Part shown: positions 5,507 to 39,016 of the stretch, in pieces | Numbering within the stretch: position 1 is the stretch's first letter | How the letters are laid out: the number at the start of each line of letters is the position of its first letter | IMG/VR virus record: IMGVR_UViG_3300033571_010538 | Span: 1 to 39,016 of that record | Strand: one strand, 5' to 3' | Length of the DNA stretch: 39,016 nt | Origin: a virus | Made by a program: the position numbers and the translations under genes | Notes under the pieces: generated by a model | Told to the model about the DNA's origin: nothing | The model's database searches: none | Seen by the model: the letters and a program-made list of their open reading frames with translations, nothing else

Positions 5507-5938
5507 ATGGCAATAGAACTTGGCAGGGTTAACGTTACCGATTTAACGCAAAATAATTATAAAATACTTGGAATCGGAATCAATAGAAGTTCTGATTCAA
5601 ATGGAATTTTTGCTGTAAATTATACAACGTTATCTCAAGCTAAAGATAATTTAAGAAATTTAATATTAACCAAAAAGGGTGAAAGATTGATGCAACCTGA
5701 ATTTGGATGTGATATTTGGAAAATTTTATTTGAGCCAATGGATAATATAGAAACTTCAATTGAAAATTCAATTTTAAGTGCAGTTTCGATTTGGTTGCCA
5801 TATTTGAGTATAAACGAAATAATATTTGATTATAATGATAATGATATCGATAATAATCGTATAGCATTAGATATTAAATTTTCATTACAATCGAATCCAT
5901 CGTTATTGGAATCGATACAAATAAATGTAGAAAAATAA
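5507..5938 (+). CDS. gp25-like baseplate wedge protein
   Basis: The protein has 143 residues, close to the usual 130-150 for the T4 gp25/GpW family. The core block NLRNLILTKKGERLMQPEFG at residues 49-68, followed by CDIWKILFEPMD (68-79), is the family hallmark. The later ILSAVSIWLPYLSINEI fits the second conserved helix and strand. gp25 forms the inner baseplate wedge with gp6 and gp53 and helps nucleate the contractile sheath at the baseplate. The gene lies one base before the gp6-like gene, the same pairing as in many contractile-tail loci. The name 'gp25-like lysozyme' in databases is historical; no lysozyme site is apparent. Confidence 0.9.
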   Translation: MAIELGRVNVTDLTQNNYKILGIGINRSSDSNGIFAVNYTTLSQAKDNLRNLILTKKGERLMQPEFGCDIWKILFEPMDNIETSIENSILSAVSIWLPYLSINEIIFDYNDNDIDNNRIALDIKFSLQSNPSLLESIQINVEK

Positions 5939-24441: not shown

Positions 24442-27400
24442 ATGGCTCTAATTAAAAAAACTTTGTTTCCCGAAAATTTAGATAAATATACTACATTTAT
24501 CAATGATACGGATATAAATAGTAAATATTTCAAGATAACTGAATTACCTGATACATTTACTGGCGGTAAAAATGCATTCCTTATAGCGGGTTCAAGTGAA
24601 TTAGTAGCGGATACCGTAGTAAAAGTTGAAATAAAAGATGCGGCTGGGAATATCATATATTATGAGCCAGGAGAAGGTAGGATGTATTCCGAAATAAATG
24701 GTGAACAATTTATAAGTGAATACTATGAGGGAGTTTCAAAAGTTGTAGCAGTTTACATTTATCCCGATACTACGGCATATGGGCCATGCACAATTACTAT
24801 ATTAGGTGAATTGAGTTCATATTATGATTCAGACGGATTACTATCAACTATACCGCTTGACTGGCAAGGAACGTATAATGTAAAATGGCAAAAAACGGTT
24901 AATGTAAATCCAACATTACCAAATACTACCAAAATTCGTTTTTATAAAAGACCTACGGTTACAATTAATGAAATATTATCGCCAATATATCAAATTGATT
25001 CCGAGGCTGGGTTAAAAATTAATACCGGAATCAACCAATCATTTGCGGATATAAGAATTTCAAATTTAGAAACATTCGCAGGTGATGTAAAGCGGGTTAA
25101 GGTATTTAGAACATCGACTGGAGATATTTCCGATTACGATATGATTCAGGATATTTTGGTTGAATCAAAAGAGTTATTAATCACATACGATTTATCTAGC
25201 AGCGTAATTGGAAATACGGGTACTTTTACATCGGAAACATTAAAGCAATATTGGAATACGGGTTCATTACAAGCAACCTTAACAACGGATAAAGTAGAGA
25301 GTGGATTAAAATTAAATGGTAGTGGAAATCTAAGATATTCATCATCTCTACAATTAAAATCCACAAATACATACGAAATAAACTTAGATGCGTTCTATTC
25401 ATCTTCAACCGATAGTAATATAGGAATATATCTTAGTGGTTCGGATGGAGGCGATGTATTGGTAGGTTCATTAAATGGTATATCTCCTACTAAAAATTTA
25501 TTAGATACAACCATACCATTTAAATTAGATTCTGATTTTGCAAGTGCATCATTATATTTTTCACAATCAAATGGCGAATGGCATTTAGGAAATATTAGCT
25601 TAAAATTATCAGAAGATACGGCATTTTCACCCGATGCCATATCATTCATAACGTCTATGCCCAACGTTGTTAGTAATCAGGATTTTAATTTTAAATTTGA
25701 ATTCTATGATGTGAATAGCAATTACGTTCCCGTATTAGTAACTGGAAGTGCTAGCTTTGTAGGAGGCTCCACAGCTATTACCAAATTATTAACATTTGAA
25801 TCGGATAGGACAGCATTTAGGTTTAGTACGGGTTCGTACGCAAACCCACCCAGTCAATTTGTAAAATTTAAAACCACACGTACAAACTTTACAGGGTCGG
25901 TGGTATATTCAAGTGCATCGTTTGACACGAATGGTAATTATATTGAACCTAGTTCATATGCGGGAGCATATCCAGGAGCGTTTCAAATTCAAAATGATAA
26001 TGAAGCACTTTTGAGTGTTGCAAATTTCACAGGAAGTATTAATACGGTATTGGTCGGTACAATTACATTTACTGCTTCATGTGAAGGATTTGAGGAATAT
26101 GAAACGATTTATAGATTTGAAGATGGTGATAATGCGCCTGGACTATTCGTAACATCAAATGCCAATCAATTCATTTACAAAGCAACCGATTTATCCCTTA
26201 ATCCTGCGGGTCAAATTATAACAATCGAAGCTAAACGTAAAAACTTAGCATCAGCAACAACTCCATTAACTGTAAATTCGGGAAGTGGAAAACCTCCATT
26301 AACATTTGTGTCTACAAACGCAACAAATGGAGTAGATACATACACATTAGCAGGAACTACATATCCATATGGAACGGGAGAAACTAGATATTTCATTTCA
26401 GGTTCAGACCAATTTGGAAATGAATTTTCAGATACAATAAAAATAACTCCTGTAAAAATATTAGATGGATTATCTGCAACACTTACAAATGATAACGCAT
26501 CATTACCAGCACTTTCAACTGGGTTTGTAGCAAGCGGTTCATTTATATTCACATCGGGTTCAGTAAATGTAAAAGTTGGAAACGAAACAATTGTATTCGA
26601 TGATGATAACGATGGCAATAGAGCAAACAACACATTTGCTATAACAAATTTAAGTGGGATAGGGTGTACGCCAAACGTATCAAATCCATCTACAAATGGA
26701 TATGGTATAACAAATTTATCAGATGATTCTGGTTCATTAGATATAACAATTAGTTATAAAGATGGAGCAGGTGACACGACTTCTATTATTAAAACGGCAA
26801 CTTACACAAAAAATAAGAAAGCAGCACCGGTATTAGAATTTGTAATTGGTAATAATAACCAATCGGTTACTGCGAAATCGACAGGTGAGCAAATCGATGC
26901 ATTTGTAAATGCAACCTTTACGGTGAATGAATCATATAATGGAGTAACTACACAAAAAACATTTACACCAACATCAATTACGGCAACTAATTCGTATAGT
27001 GTCGGTAATGCCAATGCGACATCATTGATACTACCGAGTATGGCTAATGGAACTAATTCAGTAGATATATCCGTAACAGGTACGGTAGTTGATTCGGAAA
27101 ATGTAACAAGATTTGTTTATGGGAGTATATCATTATCAAAAGTTCAAAAAGCCGCTCCGACAGTCGATGTATCCGCATCTCCGCAAACCCAAGTTGTATT
27201 AGGCACAAATGGGACTGGTTATACGGGAATACAATATAGGTATTTAGCGCAAACTTTTCAGGAGGAAAATTGCCAATTAACGGGAGGACAATCGTATAAT
27301 GTTTGGTCTTATCAAGATGTTGGAGCTGGGTATTATGTTATAAATGCACTAAATGGTGAACTAATTGGGGTCGGAAACTGGTATTTAACCCCATCATCTC

Positions 27401-30400
27401 ATGAAGATTATACGACTAAAATTGACATAATAACTCCATTTGGTTGTGGAACACAAACGACAACTACAACACAATCGCCGGTAATAACTCAACTTGAAAC
27501 GGCTGTATTGCAAGATGTAGTAATAAGTGCGCTAGAGGGCGAGGTAGATAGATTTGTGTCAGCCGCAGTTACAAGTTCAGTAGGACTCACCGATACCCCA
27601 CTAATCGAAGGTAATATCATAAAAATGTCGGATACTAGGATTGCGGTAAGTGATGCACGTGTATCGGTAAATGTAACATATACGGATAGTGAGGGTACAA
27701 CGCGAAATCAATTAATTATAATAAGAGCATCCACCTCATTGACAATAGAATTGCAAGAAGTAGGTGAACTCATAGAATACAACGTATCATCGGCATTTAA
27801 AATTGCAAATTTGAATAGTGCCACTGCAAGCCTATACCGAGCAACTGCGAGTTTAAATGCCGCAACCGCAAGTTTTAGTAGTTCAATCGGATGGTTGAAC
27901 ATTGCAACTGCGAGTTTGAACCAATACACTCAATCGCAAGATAGTAAAAATCTAACGCTATCATCGGTAACTGCGAGTTTGAACCAATACACTCAATCGC
28001 AAGATAGTAAAAATTTGGTATTATCATCAGTTACCGCAAGTTTATACCTATCAACTGCGAGTTTGAATTCGGCAACCGCAAGTTTATACCGAGCAACTGC
28101 GAGTTTGAACCAATACACTCAATCGCAAGATAGTAAAAATTTGGTATTATCATCAGTTACCGCAAGTTTTAGTAGTTCAATTGGAAGTTTGAATACCGCA
28201 ACCGCAAGTTTTAGTAGTTCAATCGGAAGCTTGAATACCACAACCGCAAGTTTTAGTAGTTCAATCGGAAGGTTAAACTCGGCAACCGCAAGTTTAAACT
28301 TGGCAACCGCAAGTTTTAGTAGTTCAATCGGAAGCTTGAATACCGCAACTGCGAGTTTAAACTTGGCAACCGCAAGTTTTAGTAGTTCAATCGGAAGCTT
28401 AAATTCAAAGACTGGCTCATACGCAACTACGGGTTCAAATATATTTACTGGCAATCAAACAATCACAGGTTCACTATTCATAACACAAAACTTAATAGTA
28501 CAAGGTTCTTCATCAATTCAAAATATTAGTTCTTCTACATTAAACATTGGAACTAATATTATAACAGTTGCGGTAAATCAACCGGCGGTTAGATTTGGTG
28601 GATTGGCTGTAATTGATAGTGGTTCAGCCGGTGGTTCTGGCTCATTCTTATACGACTCTATGCAAGATGAATTTATATTTGTTCATAGAGGAAATGGGAC
28701 TAATGTAACATCATCTCACTTTGTATTAGGACCGGAAACGTATGATAATTTAGGAAACGAAATATATCTTACAAATAATATATTACCAAAGGGAACAGGT
28801 AAAGAACATATAGTTGATTCGCAGATTTTCGATAATGGTTCACGAGTAGGTATTGGGCAAACCAATCCTTTATTAAGTTTAGATGTTTCGAACATATCAG
28901 GTAACACTTATGGAAGACCTTCAATAGGAGGTAGGAGTGCGGATGGTACTTTGTGGGGGTATATGCTTGCTCCAATAAACGGAGGAACTTTTTTCGATTT
29001 TGTTAGGTCAAATAATTTAGGATTAAGATTTGCAACTGAATCAAGTTTAGGAAGTGGTACATTTAGTACTCAAATGTTTATTAGTAGCGGTGGTAATGTT
29101 GGGATTGGTACGACAAGTCCGACGCTTGGACGGGTTCATGTAAATGGTGGTAATATCGGAATAGAGCATTCAAGTGGCCAAGGATTGGTTTTATATAACA
29201 ATTCTGATGAAAACCGGGCAGGGTACATTAGCATAACCGGAGATGGTGATTTTTCAAATAGGTTTGTAAATATAGGCTCTACAAGTACAGCTTATGGGTT
29301 TAAGTTTATAAATGGGGCAGGTACGCATATAACCGTTTTAAACAACGGCAATGTCGGCATAGGAACACCAACTCCGACTGCGAAGCTTGAAGTTAACGGA
29401 ACAGGTTTTTTTAGTAATAGTGTTACAATTAGTTCTGCTGGATATGTTCAATTATTAATTGACCAAACTGATTCAGCGGCAGTAGCTCATGGCATTACGT
29501 CAGCTTCGGCCAGAGCGTTTGTGAATGTATCAAACGATGGCGTAGGACATGTTACAGGAACTTCTGCTTATGCTTTTCTTTTTAACGGCGTTGAAAGGGC
29601 AAGATTAACGTCCGATGGTAGTTTGGGTATAGGTACAACATCTCTAACGGGCATCAATTTCCGTAGTAGCAAACCAATTACCGGCTCAGCTAGTGGATTT
29701 GGTATTCTACAAGACGGAACAATAGGCTCAGATATAACAACATCCGCATCATTAATCCAAGCTAACGTATCACAAGTCGCAGGTGTTACAACTCCCAATG
29801 TTTACACATTTATAGCAAATCAAGGAACGGTATCCGGTAGTATAACAAATTTACATGGATTTTATGTAAATAGCAATATGGTTTCGGCGACCAACAGTTA
29901 TGGATTTAGAGGACTAATTCCAAATGCATCTAACCGTTGGAACTTATATATGGATGGTACAGCACCAAATTACATGGCAGGTAGTTTGGGTATTGGAACA
30001 ATAAATCCAGCAAGTCAATTGCATATATCCGGAGAGGCACCAATTCAAACAATTACAGCAACCAACGTGTCAAGTGGGCTTAGACTTAATATTACTGGAC
30101 AAACCGGAGGATATGCACACAGAATACAAAGAGATGGTGTTACTATTCAAGCTACTTCCGTTACTGGTAATGTAGGCATAGGAAATGACTTTACCGCAGG
30201 TGCTAACCTCTTAATAAGTAAAAATATTGAAGGTTCTATCGCTCCATCTGCAATAGCTGTCACCGGAATTGTTCAATCAGGCGTAACGCAAGATACAAGA
30301 ATATTCCAATCAAGCCCTAACGTTGTAGCTGGTCATACTTTACCAAACTTGTATCACTTTATAGTATCTCCAGCTACAACATATACTGGAACTGTAACTA

Positions 30401-33400
30401 CGCAAACAGGGGTTTATATTCAATCCAATTTAACTGGGGCAACTAACAATTATGGGCTAAGAAGTTTAATACCAGCGGTATCTGGCGCAAATCACTGGAA
30501 TTTGTTCATGGATGGTACTGCACCAAATCACATGGCAGGTAGTTTGGGCATTGGTACAACAACTTTAACCGAAAGGTCTTTAGGGATAAGTAAGCCAATT
30601 ACAGGAGCAAGTACCGCATACGGAGTATTTCAAACTGGACAAATACAATCAGATGTCACTGTCGAATCTTTCGGATTTAGGAATCTTTTAAACACCGCAG
30701 CAGCATCTTTTAATTTAGGTAATTATTTTCACTATGCCGCAACGTCAATAGCGTTTGGTACAGGTAGTACAATAGGAGGTCAAACTGGTTTTTTTGCAAA
30801 CGCATCATTAACCGGAGCGACTAATAACTTTGGCTTTAGAGGATTGATACCTGCTGGGACTGGAAGATGGAACTTATACATGGATGGGACTGCTAATAAT
30901 TACATGGCAGGTAGTTTGGGGATAGGAACTTTAGGTCTGACCGGTTTAAATTTTAGAAATAGTAAAACAATAACTGGGGGAGGAAGTGGATTTTCATACG
31001 GAAACTATTCAGATGGACAAATTCAAAATGATGTTACAGGTGCAGCTTGGTATTATAGAACACAAGCATCGACTCAAGCTACATCATTTACATTGCCAAG
31101 TTTACTTCATTATCATGCTGCACAAGGTACAATAGGGGCAGGTAGTGATGTAACCACTCAAACTGGATTTTTAGCAGATGCCACATTGATTGGAGGAACT
31201 ACAAATATTGGATTTAACGGAGCTATACCAGCTGCGGCGAATCGATGGAATGTATATATGAGTGGAACTGCTCAAAACTATTTTAATGGTAGTGTGGGAA
31301 TAGGGGTAACAGTTCCTGTAACTAAGTTAGATGTACGAGGACAAGTTTCAGCAGACTTAGGGACTTTAACAAATCCCGCATATTCTTTTGTTGGAGATTT
31401 GAATACGGGATTATATAGTCCAAGTGCGGATGCTTTGGCATTAGTTACGAATGGCGCAAATCGGATTCATGTTGATAATGTCGGTAATGTTGGAATAGGA
31501 GTGATGGCTCCAACTCAAAAATTGGAAATTCATGGAGGGAACGATGTAGGTATTTCTATCTTTAACACTAATTCTAATTATTGGGATATTACAAATGGTT
31601 TGAACGGAACTCTTAATTTCATAAGAGGAAGGTCAAATAACTTCATGCAGATAAACCAATTTGGCAACGTTGGAATTGGAACGGTAGCCCCAACAGAGAG
31701 GCTCCACATATCGGGCTCAATCCTACAAACAGGTTTTAATACGGGACTAGCCTATGCAGACGCAACGGGAAAATTGATACTTGCCACAGCGGCAAATGTA
31801 AACACACTATTAGGTAATGATAGCCTAACGACCAACTATGTACCAAAATGGAACGGAACAGCTTTTACTAATAGTCAGATTTTCGATAATGGTACTAATG
31901 TGGGGGTTGGTACGACAAGTCCTATTCAATCAATTCATTTAAGAAAAGAAAGTGCAGTAGCTGTTAGTGCATCTTCAATAACAGGGAGTACACTTGCAGG
32001 CACGTTAATAAGTAACTTGGATATATCTGCTAATATTGGTGCATCAATTGCGTTTCAATTAGGTGGCACAGGTACTGCCTGGGCTTCGATTGCGGCAACA
32101 AGACCTAGTGCTAATAATTCACACTTGTCTTTCTATACAGAATTAGACGACGTGTTTTCTGAAAAGGTACGAATACTAAACAACGGAAACGTGGGGATTG
32201 GGACGGAAACACCTACAAGGGCTTTACAAATACAAAATAGCGGTAGTAATTTATTTTCCGTTCAACGTACTGGATATGATGCGTGGGGGTTTCTTCAATC
32301 AGTAGGTACAGGTATTCACTTCCATAACTATACAGATTCAAGGACTGATATGTATATAGATGGTAGTGGTAATATTGGTATGGGTACAACAATCCCAGCT
32401 ACAAAACTTCACATCCAAGCAGGAAATGCTAATCAATTACGTTTAGACAATTCGGGCGAGCGATATACAGAAATAGATTATTATAATAGCGGTTCTTTAA
32501 GAGCGGCTACTTATTATGATAACACCGCTAATGAATTTGTCCAAAGAACACTTACTACCGCCAGTATTGGATTTGATACCAATTTGATACGAAGGATGAC
32601 AATCAGTAGTAGTGGGAATGTGGGCATAGGAACGGCAACGCCAACTCAATTATTACACGTTAACGGAAACACTCGTTTAGGCGAAAGAATAGAAATGCAG
32701 CCATCAAGGCGTATCGGCGCAGGATTAGATTTTGGCAATGTAGCAGAAGCGGGAAGTGGATATTTGGAGCTCTACAATTCAGGTACAGGGGATACAAGTT
32801 TAGTAAACACAACCAATTTTGCGTCAATAACATTACATACTAACAATACCGAAAGATTGAGAGTATTACATAACGGCAACGTAGGGATTGGTATAACAAC
32901 TCCTTCGCAATCTCTTCATGTGTTTACCGCAACTCCATACCAAATACAAGTACAACGCTCAGGTGTAGCAAGTGCGTTGATTGGGGTTTCGGCACAAACA
33001 GCTAATAGTACAGGAGATTTACTGTTTGAAGCCACACAAGCAAGTCAAGGATTTGTATTCAGGTCAAGAGACTCGGGCAGTGCGTTGATTAACTCTTTGG
33101 GAATAGATAGGAACGGAAACGTGGGTATTGGCATTTTTAACCCCACAACTAAGTTAGACGTACGAGGACAAGTTTCGGCAAACATAGGGACTTTAGCAAA
33201 TCCCGCATATTCGTTTGTTGGAGACCTCAATACAGGATTATATAGTCCAAGCGCAGATACTTTAGCATTAGTTACAAATGGTGTTAATAGGCTTAATGTA
33301 TCTAACGTAGGAGATGTACTTATTGGTTCGGCTGCTGGTGTCAACTCTTTAATGGTAAGTAAAAACATTACTGGCGGTGCCGATGTATCGGGTATTAGGA

Positions 33401-35607
33401 GTAGTGGTCAAATACAAAGCGATGTAACGGGTAGTGCTTTTCTTTTTAGAGCAATAGTAAATCAGGCCAGTGCGTCATTATCTACTTTAGTAGTATATGA
33501 ATCCAATGCAGGTACTATTTCCGGAACAGGTACAAATTTTATAAATTATAGAGCCGCAGCTACTTCTGCTGGATTTACAAATGTGTATGGATTTCAAGGT
33601 ACGATTTCGTCTGGAACAAGTAGGTGGAATTTATACATGGACGGCACTGCTAATAATTACATGGCAGGTAGTTTAGGGATTGGAACTACGGCTTTGGCTG
33701 GATACAATTTATATGTAAACAAAAATATAACAGGTGCCGTAATTAGTTATGGAATAAGAAGTGATGGGCAAGTACAATCTGATGTAACTTCACAAGCAAG
33801 GTATTTTCAAACTCTTGCTTCGGTTGCCGCTAATACGTCAGCATTGCCACTTTTAACTCATTATAACACAGCACAAGGCACTTTTACTGGAAATGTAACT
33901 ACCCAAGCTGGATTTTTATCAGATGCTTCATTAATAGGAGCAACTAATAATTATGGCTTTAGAGGCAGTATACCTGCTGGAACTGGACGTTGGAACACAT
34001 TTAATGATGGTACAGCCCAAAACCACTTTAGAGGAAATGTAGGAATAGGAGTAGACTCAACTATTCCTTTAACAGCGTTAGACGTACGAGGACAAGTTTC
34101 AGCAAACTTAGGTTCTTTAACAAATCCTGCATATTCGTTTGTTGGAGACTTAAACACCGGCTTATATAGCCCAAGCGCAGATGCGTTGGCATTAGTTACG
34201 AATGGTGTAAATCGGATTCATGTTAATAATGTTGGCAATGTAGGTATTGAAACTGCAACTCCAAGTAGTACATCGAAATTACACGTTAACAACGTAGTTG
34301 GATTTTCTGTAAGGTTTCAAAATACTTATTTTTCAAATACGGTAGAATCAAATACAAACTTTGCAAGAGGGGGTATATTTAACAACGCTGAATATATTGA
34401 CGAAGGCGGTGCAACTAAAATTTGGAAGATTAGAGCCATTGGAGCAAATGATGCAGCAGGAATACTGTTTGGAAATAGTGGAACTTTAAATTTTATTTCT
34501 GTTCCAAACGTAGAAAATGTCGATAGGTCTTTAACTCATGCTCAATTATTGTCAAATGCAAGAATGACAATTTTGGCAAGCGGATTTGTAGGCATAAACA
34601 CAACAACACCAGCCACCATACTAGATGTACGAGGACAAGTTTCAGCAGACTTAGGGACTTTAGCAAATCCTGCATATTCTTTTGTTGGAGACTTGAACAC
34701 AGGATTATATAGTCCAAGTGCAGATACTTTGGCATTAGTTACGAATGGCGTTGCGAGGGTAACTATTAGTAATGTTGGGTTTATGTCAGTCGCGGGTTCA
34801 GGTAGTTTTACGGGCGATATAACGGTAAATCAGACAACAATTGGAAGGGGTGGTGGAAATATATCTGGCAATACAGTAGTCGGCCAGAGTGCAGGATTCA
34901 ATAATACTACTGGAAATCAAAATTCATTCTTTGGGTTTACAGCAGGTATTACGAATACCACTGGACAACGTAATTCATTCTTTGGACTAAACTCTGGATA
35001 TTTCAATGTAACTGGAAGTAACAATGCATTTTTCGGAACGGAAAGTGGGTTATCAAATGTTGGAAGTAACAATATATGTATTGGAGCTAGCGCTGGAGCG
35101 AGTCTAACCGGTGGTAATGATAATACTATTATTGGTAGAATTGTTGGAACGGCTGGACTTAGTGGGACTATAATCATTGGAGCAGGAACTACTGAAAGAA
35201 TTCGTGTTAGCTCAGCTGGTGTTATGTCGGTCGCAGGTTCTGCTACATTTACCGGAGATGTAACGGCTAATACATCGGATAAACGATTAAAAGATAATAT
35301 ACGTGTTATTGATAATCCATTGGAAAAGCTGTCAAAAATCAATGGTGTATATTTTAATTGGAATGATGCCGCTAAAGATTTGATACATAAATCCGATGAT
35401 ATTGAAGAAGTTGGATTTTTGGCACAAGAAGTTCAATCAGTATTACCTCATATAGTAAAACCCGCACCATTTGATATAGATGTATTGACCGGTGAATCTA
35501 AAAGTGGTGAAAACTATTTGACAATACAGTATGAAAAAATAGTTCCACTATTAGTTGAAGCTATAAAAGAATTAAAAAAACAAGTTGACGAATTAAAAAA
35601 TAAATAA
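24442..35607 (+). CDS. giant tail fibre/adhesin (3721 residues) with C-terminal S74 chaperone domain
   Basis: Regions in order are as follows. Residues 1-1120: beta-rich with many Ig-like segments and a short Thr run (TQTTTTTQSP). About 1124-1323: heptad-repetitive Ser/Ala/Thr-rich rod. About 1340-3450: repetitive shaft with many NVGIGT units, six copies of a GFRGLIP--RWNLYMDGTA--YMAGSLGIGT module and four near-identical LDVRGQVSA modules. About 3472-3586: YadA-head-like repeats (NSFFGFTAG, NAFFGTESG and similar). 3612-3721: Peptidase_S74 intramolecular chaperone, SDKRLKDNI, whose Ser3612 and Lys3617 match the Ser-Lys dyad of endosialidase tail spikes. Self-cleavage before Ser3612 would release about 110 residues after trimer folding. 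It would be a homotrimeric fibre binding the host surface. No interruption of the frame is seen across 11 kb. Confidence 0.88.
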   Translation: MALIKKTLFPENLDKYTTFINDTDINSKYFKITELPDTFTGGKNAFLIAGSSELVADTVVKVEIKDAAGNIIYYEPGEGRMYSEINGEQFISEYYEGVSKVVAVYIYPDTTAYGPCTITILGELSSYYDSDGLLSTIPLDWQGTYNVKWQKTVNVNPTLPNTTKIRFYKRPTVTINEILSPIYQIDSEAGLKINTGINQSFADIRISNLETFAGDVKRVKVFRTSTGDISDYDMIQDILVESKELLITYDLSSSVIGNTGTFTSETLKQYWNTGSLQATLTTDKVESGLKLNGSGNLRYSSSLQLKSTNTYEINLDAFYSSSTDSNIGIYLSGSDGGDVLVGSLNGISPTKNLLDTTIPFKLDSDFASASLYFSQSNGEWHLGNISLKLSEDTAFSPDAISFITSMPNVVSNQDFNFKFEFYDVNSNYVPVLVTGSASFVGGSTAITKLLTFESDRTAFRFSTGSYANPPSQFVKFKTTRTNFTGSVVYSSASFDTNGNYIEPSSYAGAYPGAFQIQNDNEALLSVANFTGSINTVLVGTITFTASCEGFEEYETIYRFEDGDNAPGLFVTSNANQFIYKATDLSLNPAGQIITIEAKRKNLASATTPLTVNSGSGKPPLTFVSTNATNGVDTYTLAGTTYPYGTGETRYFISGSDQFGNEFSDTIKITPVKILDGLSATLTNDNASLPALSTGFVASGSFIFTSGSVNVKVGNETIVFDDDNDGNRANNTFAITNLSGIGCTPNVSNPSTNGYGITNLSDDSGSLDITISYKDGAGDTTSIIKTATYTKNKKAAPVLEFVIGNNNQSVTAKSTGEQIDAFVNATFTVNESYNGVTTQKTFTPTSITATNSYSVGNANATSLILPSMANGTNSVDISVTGTVVDSENVTRFVYGSISLSKVQKAAPTVDVSASPQTQVVLGTNGTGYTGIQYRYLAQTFQEENCQLTGGQSYNVWSYQDVGAGYYVINALNGELIGVGNWYLTPSSHEDYTTKIDIITPFGCGTQTTTTTQSPVITQLETAVLQDVVISALEGEVDRFVSAAVTSSVGLTDTPLIEGNIIKMSDTRIAVSDARVSVNVTYTDSEGTTRNQLIIIRASTSLTIELQEVGELIEYNVSSAFKIANLNSATASLYRATASLNAATASFSSSIGWLNIATASLNQYTQSQDSKNLTLSSVTASLNQYTQSQDSKNLVLSSVTASLYLSTASLNSATASLYRATASLNQYTQSQDSKNLVLSSVTASFSSSIGSLNTATASFSSSIGSLNTTTASFSSSIGRLNSATASLNLATASFSSSIGSLNTATASLNLATASFSSSIGSLNSKTGSYATTGSNIFTGNQTITGSLFITQNLIVQGSSSIQNISSSTLNIGTNIITVAVNQPAVRFGGLAVIDSGSAGGSGSFLYDSMQDEFIFVHRGNGTNVTSSHFVLGPETYDNLGNEIYLTNNILPKGTGKEHIVDSQIFDNGSRVGIGQTNPLLSLDVSNISGNTYGRPSIGGRSADGTLWGYMLAPINGGTFFDFVRSNNLGLRFATESSLGSGTFSTQMFISSGGNVGIGTTSPTLGRVHVNGGNIGIEHSSGQGLVLYNNSDENRAGYISITGDGDFSNRFVNIGSTSTAYGFKFINGAGTHITVLNNGNVGIGTPTPTAKLEVNGTGFFSNSVTISSAGYVQLLIDQTDSAAVAHGITSASARAFVNVSNDGVGHVTGTSAYAFLFNGVERARLTSDGSLGIGTTSLTGINFRSSKPITGSASGFGILQDGTIGSDITTSASLIQANVSQVAGVTTPNVYTFIANQGTVSGSITNLHGFYVNSNMVSATNSYGFRGLIPNASNRWNLYMDGTAPNYMAGSLGIGTINPASQLHISGEAPIQTITATNVSSGLRLNITGQTGGYAHRIQRDGVTIQATSVTGNVGIGNDFTAGANLLISKNIEGSIAPSAIAVTGIVQSGVTQDTRIFQSSPNVVAGHTLPNLYHFIVSPATTYTGTVTTQTGVYIQSNLTGATNNYGLRSLIPAVSGANHWNLFMDGTAPNHMAGSLGIGTTTLTERSLGISKPITGASTAYGVFQTGQIQSDVTVESFGFRNLLNTAAASFNLGNYFHYAATSIAFGTGSTIGGQTGFFANASLTGATNNFGFRGLIPAGTGRWNLYMDGTANNYMAGSLGIGTLGLTGLNFRNSKTITGGGSGFSYGNYSDGQIQNDVTGAAWYYRTQASTQATSFTLPSLLHYHAAQGTIGAGSDVTTQTGFLADATLIGGTTNIGFNGAIPAAANRWNVYMSGTAQNYFNGSVGIGVTVPVTKLDVRGQVSADLGTLTNPAYSFVGDLNTGLYSPSADALALVTNGANRIHVDNVGNVGIGVMAPTQKLEIHGGNDVGISIFNTNSNYWDITNGLNGTLNFIRGRSNNFMQINQFGNVGIGTVAPTERLHISGSILQTGFNTGLAYADATGKLILATAANVNTLLGNDSLTTNYVPKWNGTAFTNSQIFDNGTNVGVGTTSPIQSIHLRKESAVAVSASSITGSTLAGTLISNLDISANIGASIAFQLGGTGTAWASIAATRPSANNSHLSFYTELDDVFSEKVRILNNGNVGIGTETPTRALQIQNSGSNLFSVQRTGYDAWGFLQSVGTGIHFHNYTDSRTDMYIDGSGNIGMGTTIPATKLHIQAGNANQLRLDNSGERYTEIDYYNSGSLRAATYYDNTANEFVQRTLTTASIGFDTNLIRRMTISSSGNVGIGTATPTQLLHVNGNTRLGERIEMQPSRRIGAGLDFGNVAEAGSGYLELYNSGTGDTSLVNTTNFASITLHTNNTERLRVLHNGNVGIGITTPSQSLHVFTATPYQIQVQRSGVASALIGVSAQTANSTGDLLFEATQASQGFVFRSRDSGSALINSLGIDRNGNVGIGIFNPTTKLDVRGQVSANIGTLANPAYSFVGDLNTGLYSPSADTLALVTNGVNRLNVSNVGDVLIGSAAGVNSLMVSKNITGGADVSGIRSSGQIQSDVTGSAFLFRAIVNQASASLSTLVVYESNAGTISGTGTNFINYRAAATSAGFTNVYGFQGTISSGTSRWNLYMDGTANNYMAGSLGIGTTALAGYNLYVNKNITGAVISYGIRSDGQVQSDVTSQARYFQTLASVAANTSALPLLTHYNTAQGTFTGNVTTQAGFLSDASLIGATNNYGFRGSIPAGTGRWNTFNDGTAQNHFRGNVGIGVDSTIPLTALDVRGQVSANLGSLTNPAYSFVGDLNTGLYSPSADALALVTNGVNRIHVNNVGNVGIETATPSSTSKLHVNNVVGFSVRFQNTYFSNTVESNTNFARGGIFNNAEYIDEGGATKIWKIRAIGANDAAGILFGNSGTLNFISVPNVENVDRSLTHAQLLSNARMTILASGFVGINTTTPATILDVRGQVSADLGTLANPAYSFVGDLNTGLYSPSADTLALVTNGVARVTISNVGFMSVAGSGSFTGDITVNQTTIGRGGGNISGNTVVGQSAGFNNTTGNQNSFFGFTAGITNTTGQRNSFFGLNSGYFNVTGSNNAFFGTESGLSNVGSNNICIGASAGASLTGGNDNTIIGRIVGTAGLSGTIIIGAGTTERIRVSSAGVMSVAGSATFTGDVTANTSDKRLKDNIRVIDNPLEKLSKINGVYFNWNDAAKDLIHKSDDIEEVGFLAQEVQSVLPHIVKPAPFDIDVLTGESKSGENYLTIQYEKIVPLLVEAIKELKKQVDELKNK
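27811..28410 (+). repeat. heptad-based repeat block in the giant fibre
   Basis: Coding repeats are phased in multiples of 21 bases (seven codons). A 46-base unit encoding a TASLNQYTQSQDSKN stretch is exactly repeated at 27906-27951, 27969-28014 and 28095-28140. A second unit encoding SFSSSIG begins near 27871, 28165, 28207, 28249, 28312 and 28375, with the last five spaced 42, 42, 63 and 63 bases. This suits a trimeric coiled-coil rod whose length can change by repeat gain or loss. Confidence 0.85.
31327..31467 (+). repeat. fibre shaft module, copy 1 (LDVRGQVSA type)
   Basis: This is the first of four near-identical ~140-base segments encoding LDVRGQVSADLGTLTNPAYS, then FVGDLNTGLYSPSAD and LALVTNG. 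Other copies start at 33154, 34078 and 34621. They differ at few residues (D/N, L/I, T/S, T/A, A/T). Confidence 0.85.
33154..33294 (+). repeat. fibre shaft module, copy 2
   Basis: Second copy, encoding LDVRGQVSANIGTLANPAYS and FVGDLNTGLYSPSAD. The DNA differs mainly at third codon positions from copy 1, so it is not a very recent duplication. Confidence 0.83.
34078..34218 (+). repeat. fibre shaft module, copy 3
   Basis: Third copy, encoding LDVRGQVSANLGSLTNPAYS. It directly follows a GTGRWN--GNVGIG module, as copy 1 follows the corresponding AANRWN--GSVGIG module, so larger composite units seem to have been duplicated. Confidence 0.83.
34621..34761 (+). repeat. fibre shaft module, copy 4
   Basis: Fourth copy, encoding LDVRGQVSADLGTLANPAYS. 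It ends shortly before the YadA-head-like region and is the last shaft module before the fibre tip. Confidence 0.83.
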
Positions 35608-36704
35608 TGCCACTACAATCATCAGGTCCAATTAAAATGTCAGAAATAAAAGCTTTCTTGGGCTCTTCATCGAACTCACTACGAGTATATAGTGCTGCAG
35701 CAAAAGCGGCTACTGGTGATGCAAAATTTGATACTCCTGATAGCCTCAGTGAGTTTTATTCATATGCCGGTGCAACAACAACGACCACATCAACTACCAC
35801 GACAACAACTACCACATTGCCACCTATAACATTTGTAAGCGTTGTTGGAAGCTGTATTATGTATGAAGGAAGTGGTAGAATTGTAATTACAGTATCGGGT
35901 GGAAGTGGTCAATATCAGTATAGTATTGACAATGGTGTAAATTTTACATCAACTACAACAAATACTACTCAAACATTTAATAATTTAAATGATGGCAACT
36001 ATGATATAAAAGTAAAAAGTGTAACTGATGATATCATTTATACATATAGTTCGAATCCGATTGTCATTAATTGCTTACCGGTATTGGGTGGTTCATTTAC
36101 AAATAGTTGTGATAGTAATGGTGTAGGAACTATTTTTATTACAGCAACCGGTGGTAGTGGTAATTATAGTTATAGAATTAGAAGAACATCCGATAATACA
36201 GATACCACATCCGGATTTAGTGTATTTACCGGATTAGATTCATTTGGTACATACAATGTATATATAACCGATACAACGTATTCAAATGAAATCTACATTG
36301 GACAGGTAACATTTAATTGTACTACAACAACTACAACTACAACTTTACCTCCGTTGAGTATAGCAAATAGTGGAGTAACTTGCTTTGGCAATGTTGGTTC
36401 GTTTACATCAACTATTTCAGGAGGTAGTGGAACATATAGTCGGATTGTAATAGCAACTTCGCAGGCGAATGCGAGTAATGCAGTTGTAAATGGACCATAT
36501 AATTCAGTTTCATCTAATCCATATTCTTGGAGTAATATATCAAATGGAACTTGGTATGTTGCAGTAATGGATTCTAATGGAACTGTTTCGGTACAAAATA
36601 CTGGAGTAGTAGTAAATTGTACAACAACAACTACAACTACCACCACAACAACTGCGGCACCAACGACAACGACAACAACAATTTCTGGAGGACCAATTCA
36701 ATAA
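35607..36704 (+). CDS. virion adhesin with SprB-like domains and poly-threonine linkers
   Basis: This 365-residue protein overlaps the fibre gene by one base. The N-terminus (LQSSGPIKMSEIKAFLGSSS, then SLSEFYSYAG) resembles the virion-docking segment common at the start of large-phage tail proteins. Three beta-sandwich repeats of ~90 residues follow, each with a VSGGSGQYQYSI-like strand and an F-N-L--G-Y turn as in SprB/PKD-type adhesion repeats. They are separated by Thr linkers: Thr57-Thr70 (one Ser inside), Thr239-Thr246, and Thr339-Thr349 plus Thr353-Thr358 around AAP. Paired Cys near domain edges may form disulfides. Thr codons are mixed (ACA, ACT, ACC, ACG), so the runs look maintained at protein level. 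Likely a fibre-tip or accessory adhesin, possibly O-glycosylated. Confidence 0.7.
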   Translation: MPLQSSGPIKMSEIKAFLGSSSNSLRVYSAAAKAATGDAKFDTPDSLSEFYSYAGATTTTTSTTTTTTTTLPPITFVSVVGSCIMYEGSGRIVITVSGGSGQYQYSIDNGVNFTSTTTNTTQTFNNLNDGNYDIKVKSVTDDIIYTYSSNPIVINCLPVLGGSFTNSCDSNGVGTIFITATGGSGNYSYRIRRTSDNTDTTSGFSVFTGLDSFGTYNVYITDTTYSNEIYIGQVTFNCTTTTTTTTLPPLSIANSGVTCFGNVGSFTSTISGGSGTYSRIVIATSQANASNAVVNGPYNSVSSNPYSWSNISNGTWYVAVMDSNGTVSVQNTGVVVNCTTTTTTTTTTTAAPTTTTTTISGGPIQ

Positions 36705-36749
36705 TTTAAAATATAATATATATAATATAGATAATACATCAAATAGGTT

Positions 36750-37691
36750 ATGAAAACATTAAGATATATATGCGCACAACCCGCAACAACGTATTATAGT
36801 TGGCAGGTCGAAGTAATGATAAATAATTTTATGGAAATGGGTATAAGCCCAAATCATATAGATATTGTATGTTGGAAGCAAGACGGATTTATTCCCGATG
36901 ATTGGATTAAATTAGCAAACGCATATCCATGTAGATTTGTATTCTACGATGATACACGTAAAACCAAACACTACATTTCATCAATACGTCCAAACATTTT
37001 AAAACAACATTGGACACGCTTTCCAGAACTAAAAGATGAAGCCATATTTTATCACGATTGTGATATTATATTTACTAAACCAACGCATCAATGGATTACA
37101 TCCGAAATGATAAATGATACCAATTGGTATGGCTCGGATACTCGTTGGTATATTGCACACTCATACATAAAAGGTAAAGGACAGCAGATAATTGATAGAA
37201 TGTGTGAACTTATGGACTTACCAGAATCCTTAATAATTGATAATGAGATGAATGCTATTGGTGCTCAATATTTAATGAAAAATATAAATTATGAATTTTG
37301 GGATAGAGTAGAAACTGATTCTGAATTACTTTATAGGAATATTACCGAATTAAATAATCAAATTAAACAAACAACGCCAACGTATCACGAACTTCAAATT
37401 TGGTGCGCGGATATGTGGGCAGTTCTTTGGGGAGCATGGCGATTGGGATATAATACAGTTTGTCATCCAAATTTTGATTTTAGTTGGGGAACTTCTACGC
37501 AAGATGATTACCATAAAATGAATATTATGCACAATGCCGGTGTAGTAAATTCTATGAGTGGGTTATTTTATAAAGCAGAATATATAAATAAATTACCCTA
37601 TAATGAAAATTTGGATATCAAAGAAAATACTGCTAGTTGGCATTATTGGAATTGGATACACAGCACATCAAAAAAATCGATATTAATATGA
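36750..37691 (+). CDS. glycosyltransferase-like protein (GT-A type, DxD)
   Basis: The protein has 313 residues. A Rossmann-like N-terminus (LRYICAQPATTYYSWQVEVM) is followed by the block AIFYHDCDIIFTKP, whose Asp103-Cys104-Asp105 is a typical DxD motif for metal and nucleotide-sugar binding. The C-terminal half contains many Trp and His (LQIWCADMWAVLWGAWRLG, FDFSWGT, ASWHYWNW), suiting an acceptor or sugar pocket. There is no signal peptide or membrane segment, so it acts in the cytoplasm of the infected cell. The YYSWQ pattern recalls protein O-glycosyltransferases of the hydroxyproline arabinosyltransferase/serine galactosyltransferase group, but that is recollection only. The upstream neighbour carries poly-Thr linkers, a possible substrate. 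It follows after a 45-base AT-only-like gap and precedes a radical SAM gene by 16 bases. Confidence 0.65.
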   Translation: MKTLRYICAQPATTYYSWQVEVMINNFMEMGISPNHIDIVCWKQDGFIPDDWIKLANAYPCRFVFYDDTRKTKHYISSIRPNILKQHWTRFPELKDEAIFYHDCDIIFTKPTHQWITSEMINDTNWYGSDTRWYIAHSYIKGKGQQIIDRMCELMDLPESLIIDNEMNAIGAQYLMKNINYEFWDRVETDSELLYRNITELNNQIKQTTPTYHELQIWCADMWAVLWGAWRLGYNTVCHPNFDFSWGTSTQDDYHKMNIMHNAGVVNSMSGLFYKAEYINKLPYNENLDIKENTASWHYWNWIHSTSKKSILI

Positions 37692-37707
37692 GTAAAAGTT
37701 ATAGATT

Positions 37708-38736
37708 ATGACAATAAAGGAACAATTTAACACATATAAAATACATCAAATGCAATTAGACCCGTTTGGTGTGTGTAATGCAAAATGTTGGTTCTGCCCA
37801 GTAAAATACAAAGGAAATCCAACGGAAGGTAAGGAAGTGATGAGTGTTGAACTATTAGAAAAAATAATTAAAAATCTTATCGATGAAAGAGACAAAGAAG
37901 ATGGGTTAGTGCATAAACATTTTGGAGGATTTTATACAGCACATTACAACGAAATTCTTCTATATCCGCACTTCGAAGAATTATTACAAATCTGCCAAAA
38001 ATATAGATTATGCTTTATGGTGTTATCGAATGGAGTTCCGTTGACTCCTCAAAAAGTTGATTTAATAAAAAAATATTCCGGAGTGGTTAACGGTATATGT
38101 TTAAATATTCCGGCATTTGAACCTGAAATTTGGAGTTTGAGAAGTGGTATAAACATAAAGCAATTTGATAAGTTAATATCTAATATTACTTATGTGATGG
38201 AGCAATTACCGCATATGGTTCAAAATAAATCATTTTCAATTCAGGTAAATGGGTCTAATCATAATTCATTCAGTGATAGAGGTGGTTGGTTAGATAAAGG
38301 GGCCGAATTTCCTGTTGATATGGATTTAGACCCTATTAATGGTGAACTCGCTCAGCAGTTTAATAAAGCAAAAGAATTGTTTCCCGATTTACAAATATTT
38401 GATGTACCATCTTTAATTGATAGAGCTGGGTTATTAGACCATATAATGACTAACAAACAAGCAATAAAAAGAAATCTACAAAGAGGTGATGAGACTAAAA
38501 AAGTAATTGGGTGTGGTAATGGTAGAGAGGTTGGTGGAAGACCGGTTGGTTGGATTCACGTTAACGCAGCAGGTAAGGCATTTCTATGTTGTAATGATTA
38601 TGATATGGAAGTTCAGTTTGGAGATTTTAAAACTCAAGAACTAAAAGATTTTTGGGGAAATGAAGAACATCAACTGAAAGTACAAGAATCATACGATACA
38701 ATTTGTAGAAGTTGTGCTTCTGCTATTTTTGAATAA
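37708..38736 (+). CDS. radical SAM protein with SPASM-like C-terminus
   Basis: In this 342-residue protein the cluster motif Cys23-x3-Cys27-x2-Cys30 (FGVCNAKCWFCPV) binds the [4Fe-4S]-SAM centre, and the following barrel shows LQICQKYRLCFMVLSNGVPL and NGICLNIPAF. The C-terminus has further Cys residues at 269, 294, 295, 333 and 336 in a context (GWIHVNAAGKAFLCCNDYDM, then FGDFKTQELKDFW, then CRSCASA) that is typical of SPASM-type auxiliary cluster domains. Such enzymes often modify peptides, proteins or sugars by radical chemistry. The substrate is not evident. The gene follows the glycosyltransferase after 16 bases and shares its orientation, suggesting a two-gene modification unit. It is full length for the family. 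Confidence 0.88.
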   Translation: MTIKEQFNTYKIHQMQLDPFGVCNAKCWFCPVKYKGNPTEGKEVMSVELLEKIIKNLIDERDKEDGLVHKHFGGFYTAHYNEILLYPHFEELLQICQKYRLCFMVLSNGVPLTPQKVDLIKKYSGVVNGICLNIPAFEPEIWSLRSGINIKQFDKLISNITYVMEQLPHMVQNKSFSIQVNGSNHNSFSDRGGWLDKGAEFPVDMDLDPINGELAQQFNKAKELFPDLQIFDVPSLIDRAGLLDHIMTNKQAIKRNLQRGDETKKVIGCGNGREVGGRPVGWIHVNAAGKAFLCCNDYDMEVQFGDFKTQELKDFWGNEEHQLKVQESYDTICRSCASAIFE

Positions 38737-38764
38737 TTAAAAAATAAATACTTATTAAAACACA

Positions 38765-38798
38765 AAAGTTATGATATCGTTAAAGTTATGATATCATT
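38765..38798 (+). repeat. 17-base tandem direct repeat, possible operator
   Basis: AAAGTTATGATATCGTT (38765-38781) is followed at once by AAAGTTATGATATCATT (38782-38798), one mismatch in 17. Each contains the palindrome GATATC. It lies in the 97-base gap before the last gene, 23 bases ahead of an ATATTTATA motif, a fitting place for a regulator site. Confidence 0.6.
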
Positions 38799-38821
38799 CT
38801 AATACTTTATACAATTTTAGT

Positions 38822-38830
38822 ATATTTATA
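38822..38830 (+). promoter_or_regulatory. candidate promoter element ATATTTATA
   Basis: An exact copy of the intergenic motif, ending three bases before the ATG at 38834 and 36 bases before the in-frame ATG at 38867. If it acts as a -10-like element, the downstream ATG is the more likely start. Confidence 0.48.
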
Positions 38831-38833
38831 GGT

Positions 38834-39016
38834 ATGATTATACTAAACGAAATAAATATAGAAAAAATGACTAAAACCGTAGTCATATACTCAGGTCGTT
38901 TTCAACCATTTCACAAAGGACATTATGCCGCATATCAAAAATTAGTATCTAAATTTGGGGTTAATAATGTTTATATTGGCACATCGAATAAAACGGATAG
39001 TGTGAAATCCCCGTTC
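38834..39016 (+). CDS. cytidylyltransferase/NadM-like nucleotidyltransferase, 5' part (continues past window)
   Basis: The frame is open to the last base of the window. From the second in-frame ATG (38867) the protein reads MTKTVVIYSGRFQPFHKGHY, which contains the GRFQPFHKGH motif of the HxGH nucleotidyltransferase superfamily. The family includes nicotinamide-nucleotide, pantetheine-phosphate and glycerol-phosphate nucleotidylyltransferases. The motif binds the nucleotide phosphates. Large phages often carry NadM-like members for NAD salvage, but other substrates are possible and the decisive C-terminal part is missing. The first ATG (38834) would add 11 residues (MIILNEINIEK) and would leave almost no mRNA leader. 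The gap upstream holds a tandem repeat and an ATATTTATA motif. Confidence 0.8.
   Translation, partial: MIILNEINIEKMTKTVVIYSGRFQPFHKGHYAAYQKLVSKFGVNNVYIGTSNKTDSVKSPF

Follow-up and report, generated by a model that had tools for sequence, protein, structure and literature searches.

What do a glycosyltransferase (GT) and a radical S-adenosylmethionine (SAM) enzyme, encoded one after the other downstream of a giant fibre gene, act upon? The question is raised by a 39-kb linear virus record, IMGVR_UViG_3300033571_010538 (the window, G000, taken at its full length of 39,016 nucleotides), in which baseplate and replication genes lie upstream of the locus, so that the phage is a tailed one. The list of open reading frames (ORFs) gives consecutive genes, all on the + strand, for a poly-threonine (poly-Thr) protein, the GT and the radical SAM enzyme, with an intergenic gap of 16 bases between the last two. 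This row had been put forward in an original prediction made from the DNA letters alone, and was confirmed by the ORF coordinates and by domain searches. The three genes are interpreted here, with a probability of about 0.78, as a cassette for glycosylation of the virion.

24442..35607, + strand: fibre of 3721 amino acids (aa) with a C-terminal Peptidase_S74 chaperone and one Thr5 run at residue 1006
35607..36704, + strand: 365-aa SprB-repeat protein, the proposed glycan acceptor, whose start overlaps the fibre stop (TAATG)
36750..37691, + strand: 313-aa predicted GT-A glycosyltransferase, PHROG 4417 (PHROG profile, AlphaFold2 model, Foldseek)
37708..38736, + strand: 342-aa radical SAM enzyme with a twitch/SPASM-like C-terminus (Pfam, AlphaFold2 model, profile match to BtrN)

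According to the proposed mechanism, the GT, as a DxD metal-dependent GT-A enzyme, would move a sugar from a nucleotide-sugar donor to Thr hydroxyls, a step held to be very probable, and the acceptor would be the homopolymeric Thr segments of the protein encoded directly upstream. The outcome would be dense mucin-like O-glycan patches on a particle surface protein, which may serve shielding, altered binding or protease resistance. The radical SAM enzyme, whose participation is considered probable, would be an optional tailoring enzyme on the same segment, its target being most likely the sugar once attached or, failing that, the Thr residues themselves.

Threonine runs upstream of the glycosyltransferase

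Loci for the survey of this pairing were collected by similarity to the GT or the radical SAM enzyme only and clustered at 90% identity, with a Thr run defined as five or more consecutive Thr. The gene directly upstream of the GT carries such a run in 61 of 75 viral non-redundant clusters, as against none of 78 for the gene directly downstream (Fisher 2e-29); the background rate is 124/2631 genes, and an upstream run was seen at 1 of 27 long cellular GT homologues. Co-occurrence among relatives, on which the original prediction had staked itself, is thus found for the GT/poly-Thr pairing. In Firmicutes prophages, the GT is preceded by the gene of a major structural protein whose terminal Thr stretch ranges from a few residues to some tens; the protein belongs either to the tail-tube families PHROG 88, 238, 6686 and 14018 or to the major head families PHROG 840, 10, 29 and 247. 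Cultured phages that carry the module include the Enterococcus phages phiFL1A (tail-tube tag), VPE25 and vipetofem (capsid tag) and Lactobacillus phage Semele. As the tag sits on unrelated capsid and tail-tube families, the candidate acceptors share the tag and not the protein.

Within single acceptor families, the Thr tail and the GT come and go together. Among 38 relatives of the L411 tail-tube protein, nine have both tail and GT, 25 have neither (absence of the GT referring to the stretch read), none is mixed, and four tailless loci are too short to judge. The 35 relatives of the L441 capsid protein comprise 19 with tail and GT, 14 with neither, one that is too short, and L514, in which the GT is present and a frameshift within the capsid gene's ORF has moved the Thr tail to another frame. 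Co-presence of tail and GT amounts to a Fisher p of ~1e-8 in each of the two families, before correction for relatedness. Given this shared presence and absence within one acceptor family, poly-Thr plus GT looks, at the level of sequence, like a portable module for virion O-glycosylation. A converse sample of poly-Thr10 ORFs was drawn by DNA pattern alone; among the matches listed, 10 of 75 viral ORFs with a downstream gene have this GT next, so that there are many poly-Thr proteins without such a GT.

At L443, the candidate acceptor upstream of the GT has a Ser-rich tail (SASESVSASES) in place of poly-Thr. In phages or prophages of Enterococcus, Listeria and Lacticaseibacillus (L165, L437, L445), the major head protein ends at a stop from which the poly-Thr tag extends in the -1 frame, near positions 5686, 3068 and 5905 and at the sites GCAAAG-TAA, TCAAAG-TAA and C-CCA-AAA, respectively; hairpins occur 3' of the site in L437 and L445. 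This arrangement suggests a programmed frameshift that would tag only some of the capsid subunits. At L165 5694-5852, the minus-strand annotation vipetofem_10, described as a poly-Val protein, probably represents the poly-Thr tag read in antisense.

The glycosyltransferase and its candidate acceptor

A profile search matched residues 5-306 of the 313-residue GT to PHROG 4417 (E=5e-61), a family annotated 'unknown function'; no Pfam or NCBIfam model matches the protein, and no GT family is recognised at the sequence level. Its AlphaFold2 model (predicted local distance difference test, pLDDT, 97.6; 67 aligned relatives) has GT-A enzymes as its Foldseek neighbours in the Protein Data Bank, namely UGGT, WbbM, the blood-group enzymes GTA/GTB, LARGE1, glycogenin and LgtC (E 1e-6 to 1e-5, template modelling score 0.4-0.5). 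The protein therefore models as a GT-A fold with DxD, in keeping with the glycosyltransferase-like character first ascribed to it; the comparison with GT8/24/6-like enzymes rests on the fold and the DxD motif, the retaining mechanism forming no part of the match.

37056..37064, + strand: DxD motif D103-C-D105 of the GT, both Asp invariant in 67 sequences
37530..37532, + strand: His261 of the GT, invariant in 67 sequences, a possible third metal ligand by analogy with GT8 enzymes

A weak resemblance of the GT C-terminus to the Arstotzka protein of phage P68 (E=0.12) received no support from the family profile and was set aside.

The Thr runs of the 365-aa protein, with 5, 8, 8, 11 and 6 residues, are spread over three linker regions:

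35775..35816, + strand: Thr region 1, residues 57-70, T5-S-T8
36321..36344, + strand: Thr region 2, residues 239-246, T8
36621..36680, + strand: Thr region 3, residues 339-358, T11-AAP-T6

These runs use mixed ACA/ACT/ACC/ACG codons and are therefore no simple DNA microsatellite; four runs of at least six Thr did not arise in any of 20,000 shuffles of the protein's own residues, and a chance microsatellite origin was ruled out on both grounds. The protein contains two SprB repeats (Pfam, E=2.7e-7), and the term 'adhesin', under which it was introduced, is only a label. No match to it, nor to the radical SAM enzyme, was returned by tblastn against INPHARED. The giant fibre, named at the outset as a second target, does carry its one Thr5 run, but is rated weak and retained as a possible secondary acceptor only.

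The radical SAM enzyme

The CX3CX2C motif and the fold place the third protein in the radical SAM superfamily (AlphaFold2 model with pLDDT 94.3), and its Pfam matches to Radical_SAM (1.8e-10) and SPASM (1.7e-7) lie above the cut-offs.

37774..37797, + strand: CX3CX2C SAM-cluster motif (C23, C27, C30), invariant in 42 sequences
38512..38715, + strand: auxiliary-cluster Cys 269, 294, 333 and 336, invariant in 42 sequences

The SPASM-like cysteine pattern of the original prediction is thus borne out by Pfam as far as likeness goes; with only four auxiliary Cys invariant across the 42 relatives, however, the full seven-Cys type with two auxiliary clusters is not supported, and a one-cluster 'twitch' domain fits better.

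The GT is fused to the radical SAM enzyme or located within two genes of it in 10 of 40 radical SAM clusters; in the rest, the partner is in some cases a GT60-like or GT32-like enzyme, while in several clusters no GT is recognised. A 665-aa fusion of GT and radical SAM enzyme in one reading frame occurs at L093-L099 and L119, and is preceded by a poly-Thr gene in L093-L096, L098 and L099. In L022 and L044 a second GT-like gene is inserted between the two (assigned by Pfam Mannosyl_trans3 in L044 and by sequence similarity in L022), and L050 has a gene of equal size at this position. Judged by this distribution, the radical SAM enzyme is an optional third part of the module. Among clusters that have a Thr run, its greatest length is at least 11 residues in 14 of 15 with the radical SAM enzyme vs 3 of 37 without (p=1e-6); on the GT tree, this link is suggestive only.

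Enzymes acting on sugars and enzymes acting on peptides both occur among its fold neighbours, which do not discriminate between the two kinds of substrate. If the GT glycosylated Thr while the radical SAM enzyme modified the Thr peptide itself, for example by epimerisation or cross-linking, the longer uninterrupted runs in its presence would be accounted for, as would the peptide enzymes CteB, EpeE and SuiB among the fold neighbours. This division of labour is nevertheless rather unlikely, as the aminocyclitol dehydrogenase BtrN comes out closest among solved relatives in the profile comparison (E=1e-14, against 5e-4 for YydG), every NCBIfam peptide-maturase model scores far below its cut-off, and the partners of the enzyme are varied GTs even where a Thr run is not seen. 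The sugar is slightly favoured over the peptide as the target. It is less likely still that the radical SAM enzyme is a mere hitchhiker of a variable region, functionally unrelated to the GT: its relatives do occur in other contexts and it is absent from 41 of 60 GT clusters, yet the in-frame fusion and recurrent adjacency speak against this reading, as do its roughly eight changes of presence on the GT tree, at least four of them on well-supported branches. The claim that both enzymes act on the poly-Thr protein is thus supported in part: the pairing of GT and poly-Thr has strong support from the conserved order of the genes, from their joint presence and joint absence, and from the unrelated nature of the tagged proteins, while for the radical SAM enzyme it is the partnership that recurrence and fusion support.

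More distant radical SAM enzymes adjoin GT60-like or GT32-like enzymes, in some cases with a poly-Thr gene upstream. At L126, L114 and L160 the neighbours are GT60-like polypeptide N-acetylglucosamine (GlcNAc) transferases, some accompanied by genes for 2-oxoglutarate-Fe oxygenases as well as one for a poly-Thr protein; these loci may hold a parallel cassette for protein glycosylation. A 206-kb phage contig (L109, L115) carries two radical SAM relatives, each beside a ~760-aa gene and with no GT recognised; the ~760-aa gene at L109 resembles ribonucleotide reductase. In the window, a terminator-like hairpin marks the end of the radical SAM gene (38705..38723, + strand; by pattern only, with two found vs 1.8 expected), and Rfam gave no match within 35000-39016. 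Further downstream, the near-repeat AAAGTTATGATATC is present twice at 38766-38805, followed by a cytidylyltransferase/NMNAT-like gene, which is cut off by the end of the contig.

Remaining alternatives and known systems

Several observations weigh against the virion glycosylation cassette. A freshwater subgroup of about 20 loci, together with L239-241, L087, L100, L103 and L058, has the GT with no Thr run in the 3 kb upstream, and the long GT homologues of Bacteroidota chromosomes lack the tag. Radical SAM relatives are found with no recognised GT at L109 (beside ribonucleotide reductase), L131 and L134. With phylogeny considered, the link between Thr length and the radical SAM enzyme comes down to four independent pairs with support, of which on average none is discordant, and p is 0.125 at best. 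Finally, it is the position beside the fibre that suggests a place in the virion for the 365-aa protein.

The missing Thr runs at some loci would suit a GT and a radical SAM enzyme that modify a host surface polysaccharide, in the sense of superinfection exclusion, their position beside tail genes being incidental. The longer cellular homologues in Bacteroidota chromosomes (about 480-830 aa) point the same way, and GTs of pelagimyophages have been interpreted so, in a host-recognition region whose radical SAM cassettes are variable as well (PMC7029224). This account, however, leaves unexplained both the joint gain and loss of the GT and the capsid or tail-tube Thr tails and the strict upstream position of the Thr-run gene, and is held to be quite improbable. 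DNA-modifying enzymes do exist among phage GTs (PMC12619734), but a GT that modifies phage DNA next to a poly-Thr stretch acting as flexible linker only is judged most improbable, since it does not account for capsid tails being gained and lost with the GT and since the GT-A fold resembles protein- and glycan-acting enzymes.

Virion glycosylation by phage-encoded GTs is reported for mycobacteriophages, at the C-termini of capsid and tail-tube proteins (Freeman et al. 2023, as cited in PMC12619734). The phage-encoded GT is a common feature, and the capsid and tail-tube C-termini of the Firmicutes relatives fit by sequence pattern, whereas the window's candidate acceptor is a linker-bearing fibre-region protein. 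Moreover, the capsid and tail-tube proteins of mycobacteriophage Che8 end without Thr runs, in contrast to the homopolymeric Thr acceptors considered here, and its GTs are encoded far off at the 3' genome end, whereas the present GT adjoins the acceptor gene, with the radical SAM enzyme optional. The GT profile found no match at E<=10 among the Che8 ORFs in the stretches read, so that Che8 was rejected as a relative, and no Mycobacterium record appeared among the tblastn hits. In tag, gene place and sequence, the module differs from those Che8 genes that were compared.

With the GT24/GT8/GT6 enzymes (UGGT, glycogenin, LgtC, GTA/GTB) the GT shares the GT-A fold and DxD, but identity is ~10%, no Pfam model matches and the proposed acceptor differs. 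The GT60 polypeptide GlcNAc-transferases (PF11397) take the same place beside distant radical SAM relatives, some near poly-Thr and 2-oxoglutarate oxygenase genes, and share no sequence homology with the GT of the window. The radical SAM enzyme has the SAM-cluster motif, fold and auxiliary Cys in common with BtrN and the twitch/SPASM enzymes EpeE, DesII and BlsE; unlike these, it occurs together with a GT, or joined to it in one protein, next to a poly-Thr gene and outside any antibiotic or peptide cluster, and, unlike the maturases of ribosomally synthesised and post-translationally modified peptides, it has a 365-aa protein as its neighbouring substrate candidate. No prior description of poly-threonine with a phage glycosyltransferase was found in the literature, subscription papers and preprints lying outside the search; the module is apparently undescribed, its novelty being provisional and its priority not established because the search was limited.

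A tentative generalisation, given slightly less than even odds, is a phage system of wide distribution: homopolymeric Thr tags would single out capsid, tail-tube and fibre-region proteins for O-glycosylation by a dedicated GT, with tailoring of the glycan or of Thr by a radical SAM enzyme added in some lineages, the enzyme being fused to the GT in one clade. PHROG 4417, a phage protein family that is widespread and annotated as 'unknown', is thereby offered a function. Wherever a poly-Thr tail precedes this GT, virion glycosylation would become predictable from sequence, among others in phages of Enterococcus, Lactobacillus, Listeria, Bacillaceae and Bacteroidota. Consequences would follow for how phages are recognised, for their stability and for their visibility to the immune system, and the radical SAM step, where present and if true, would represent a new kind of virion chemistry, with a radical SAM enzyme acting on a virion protein.

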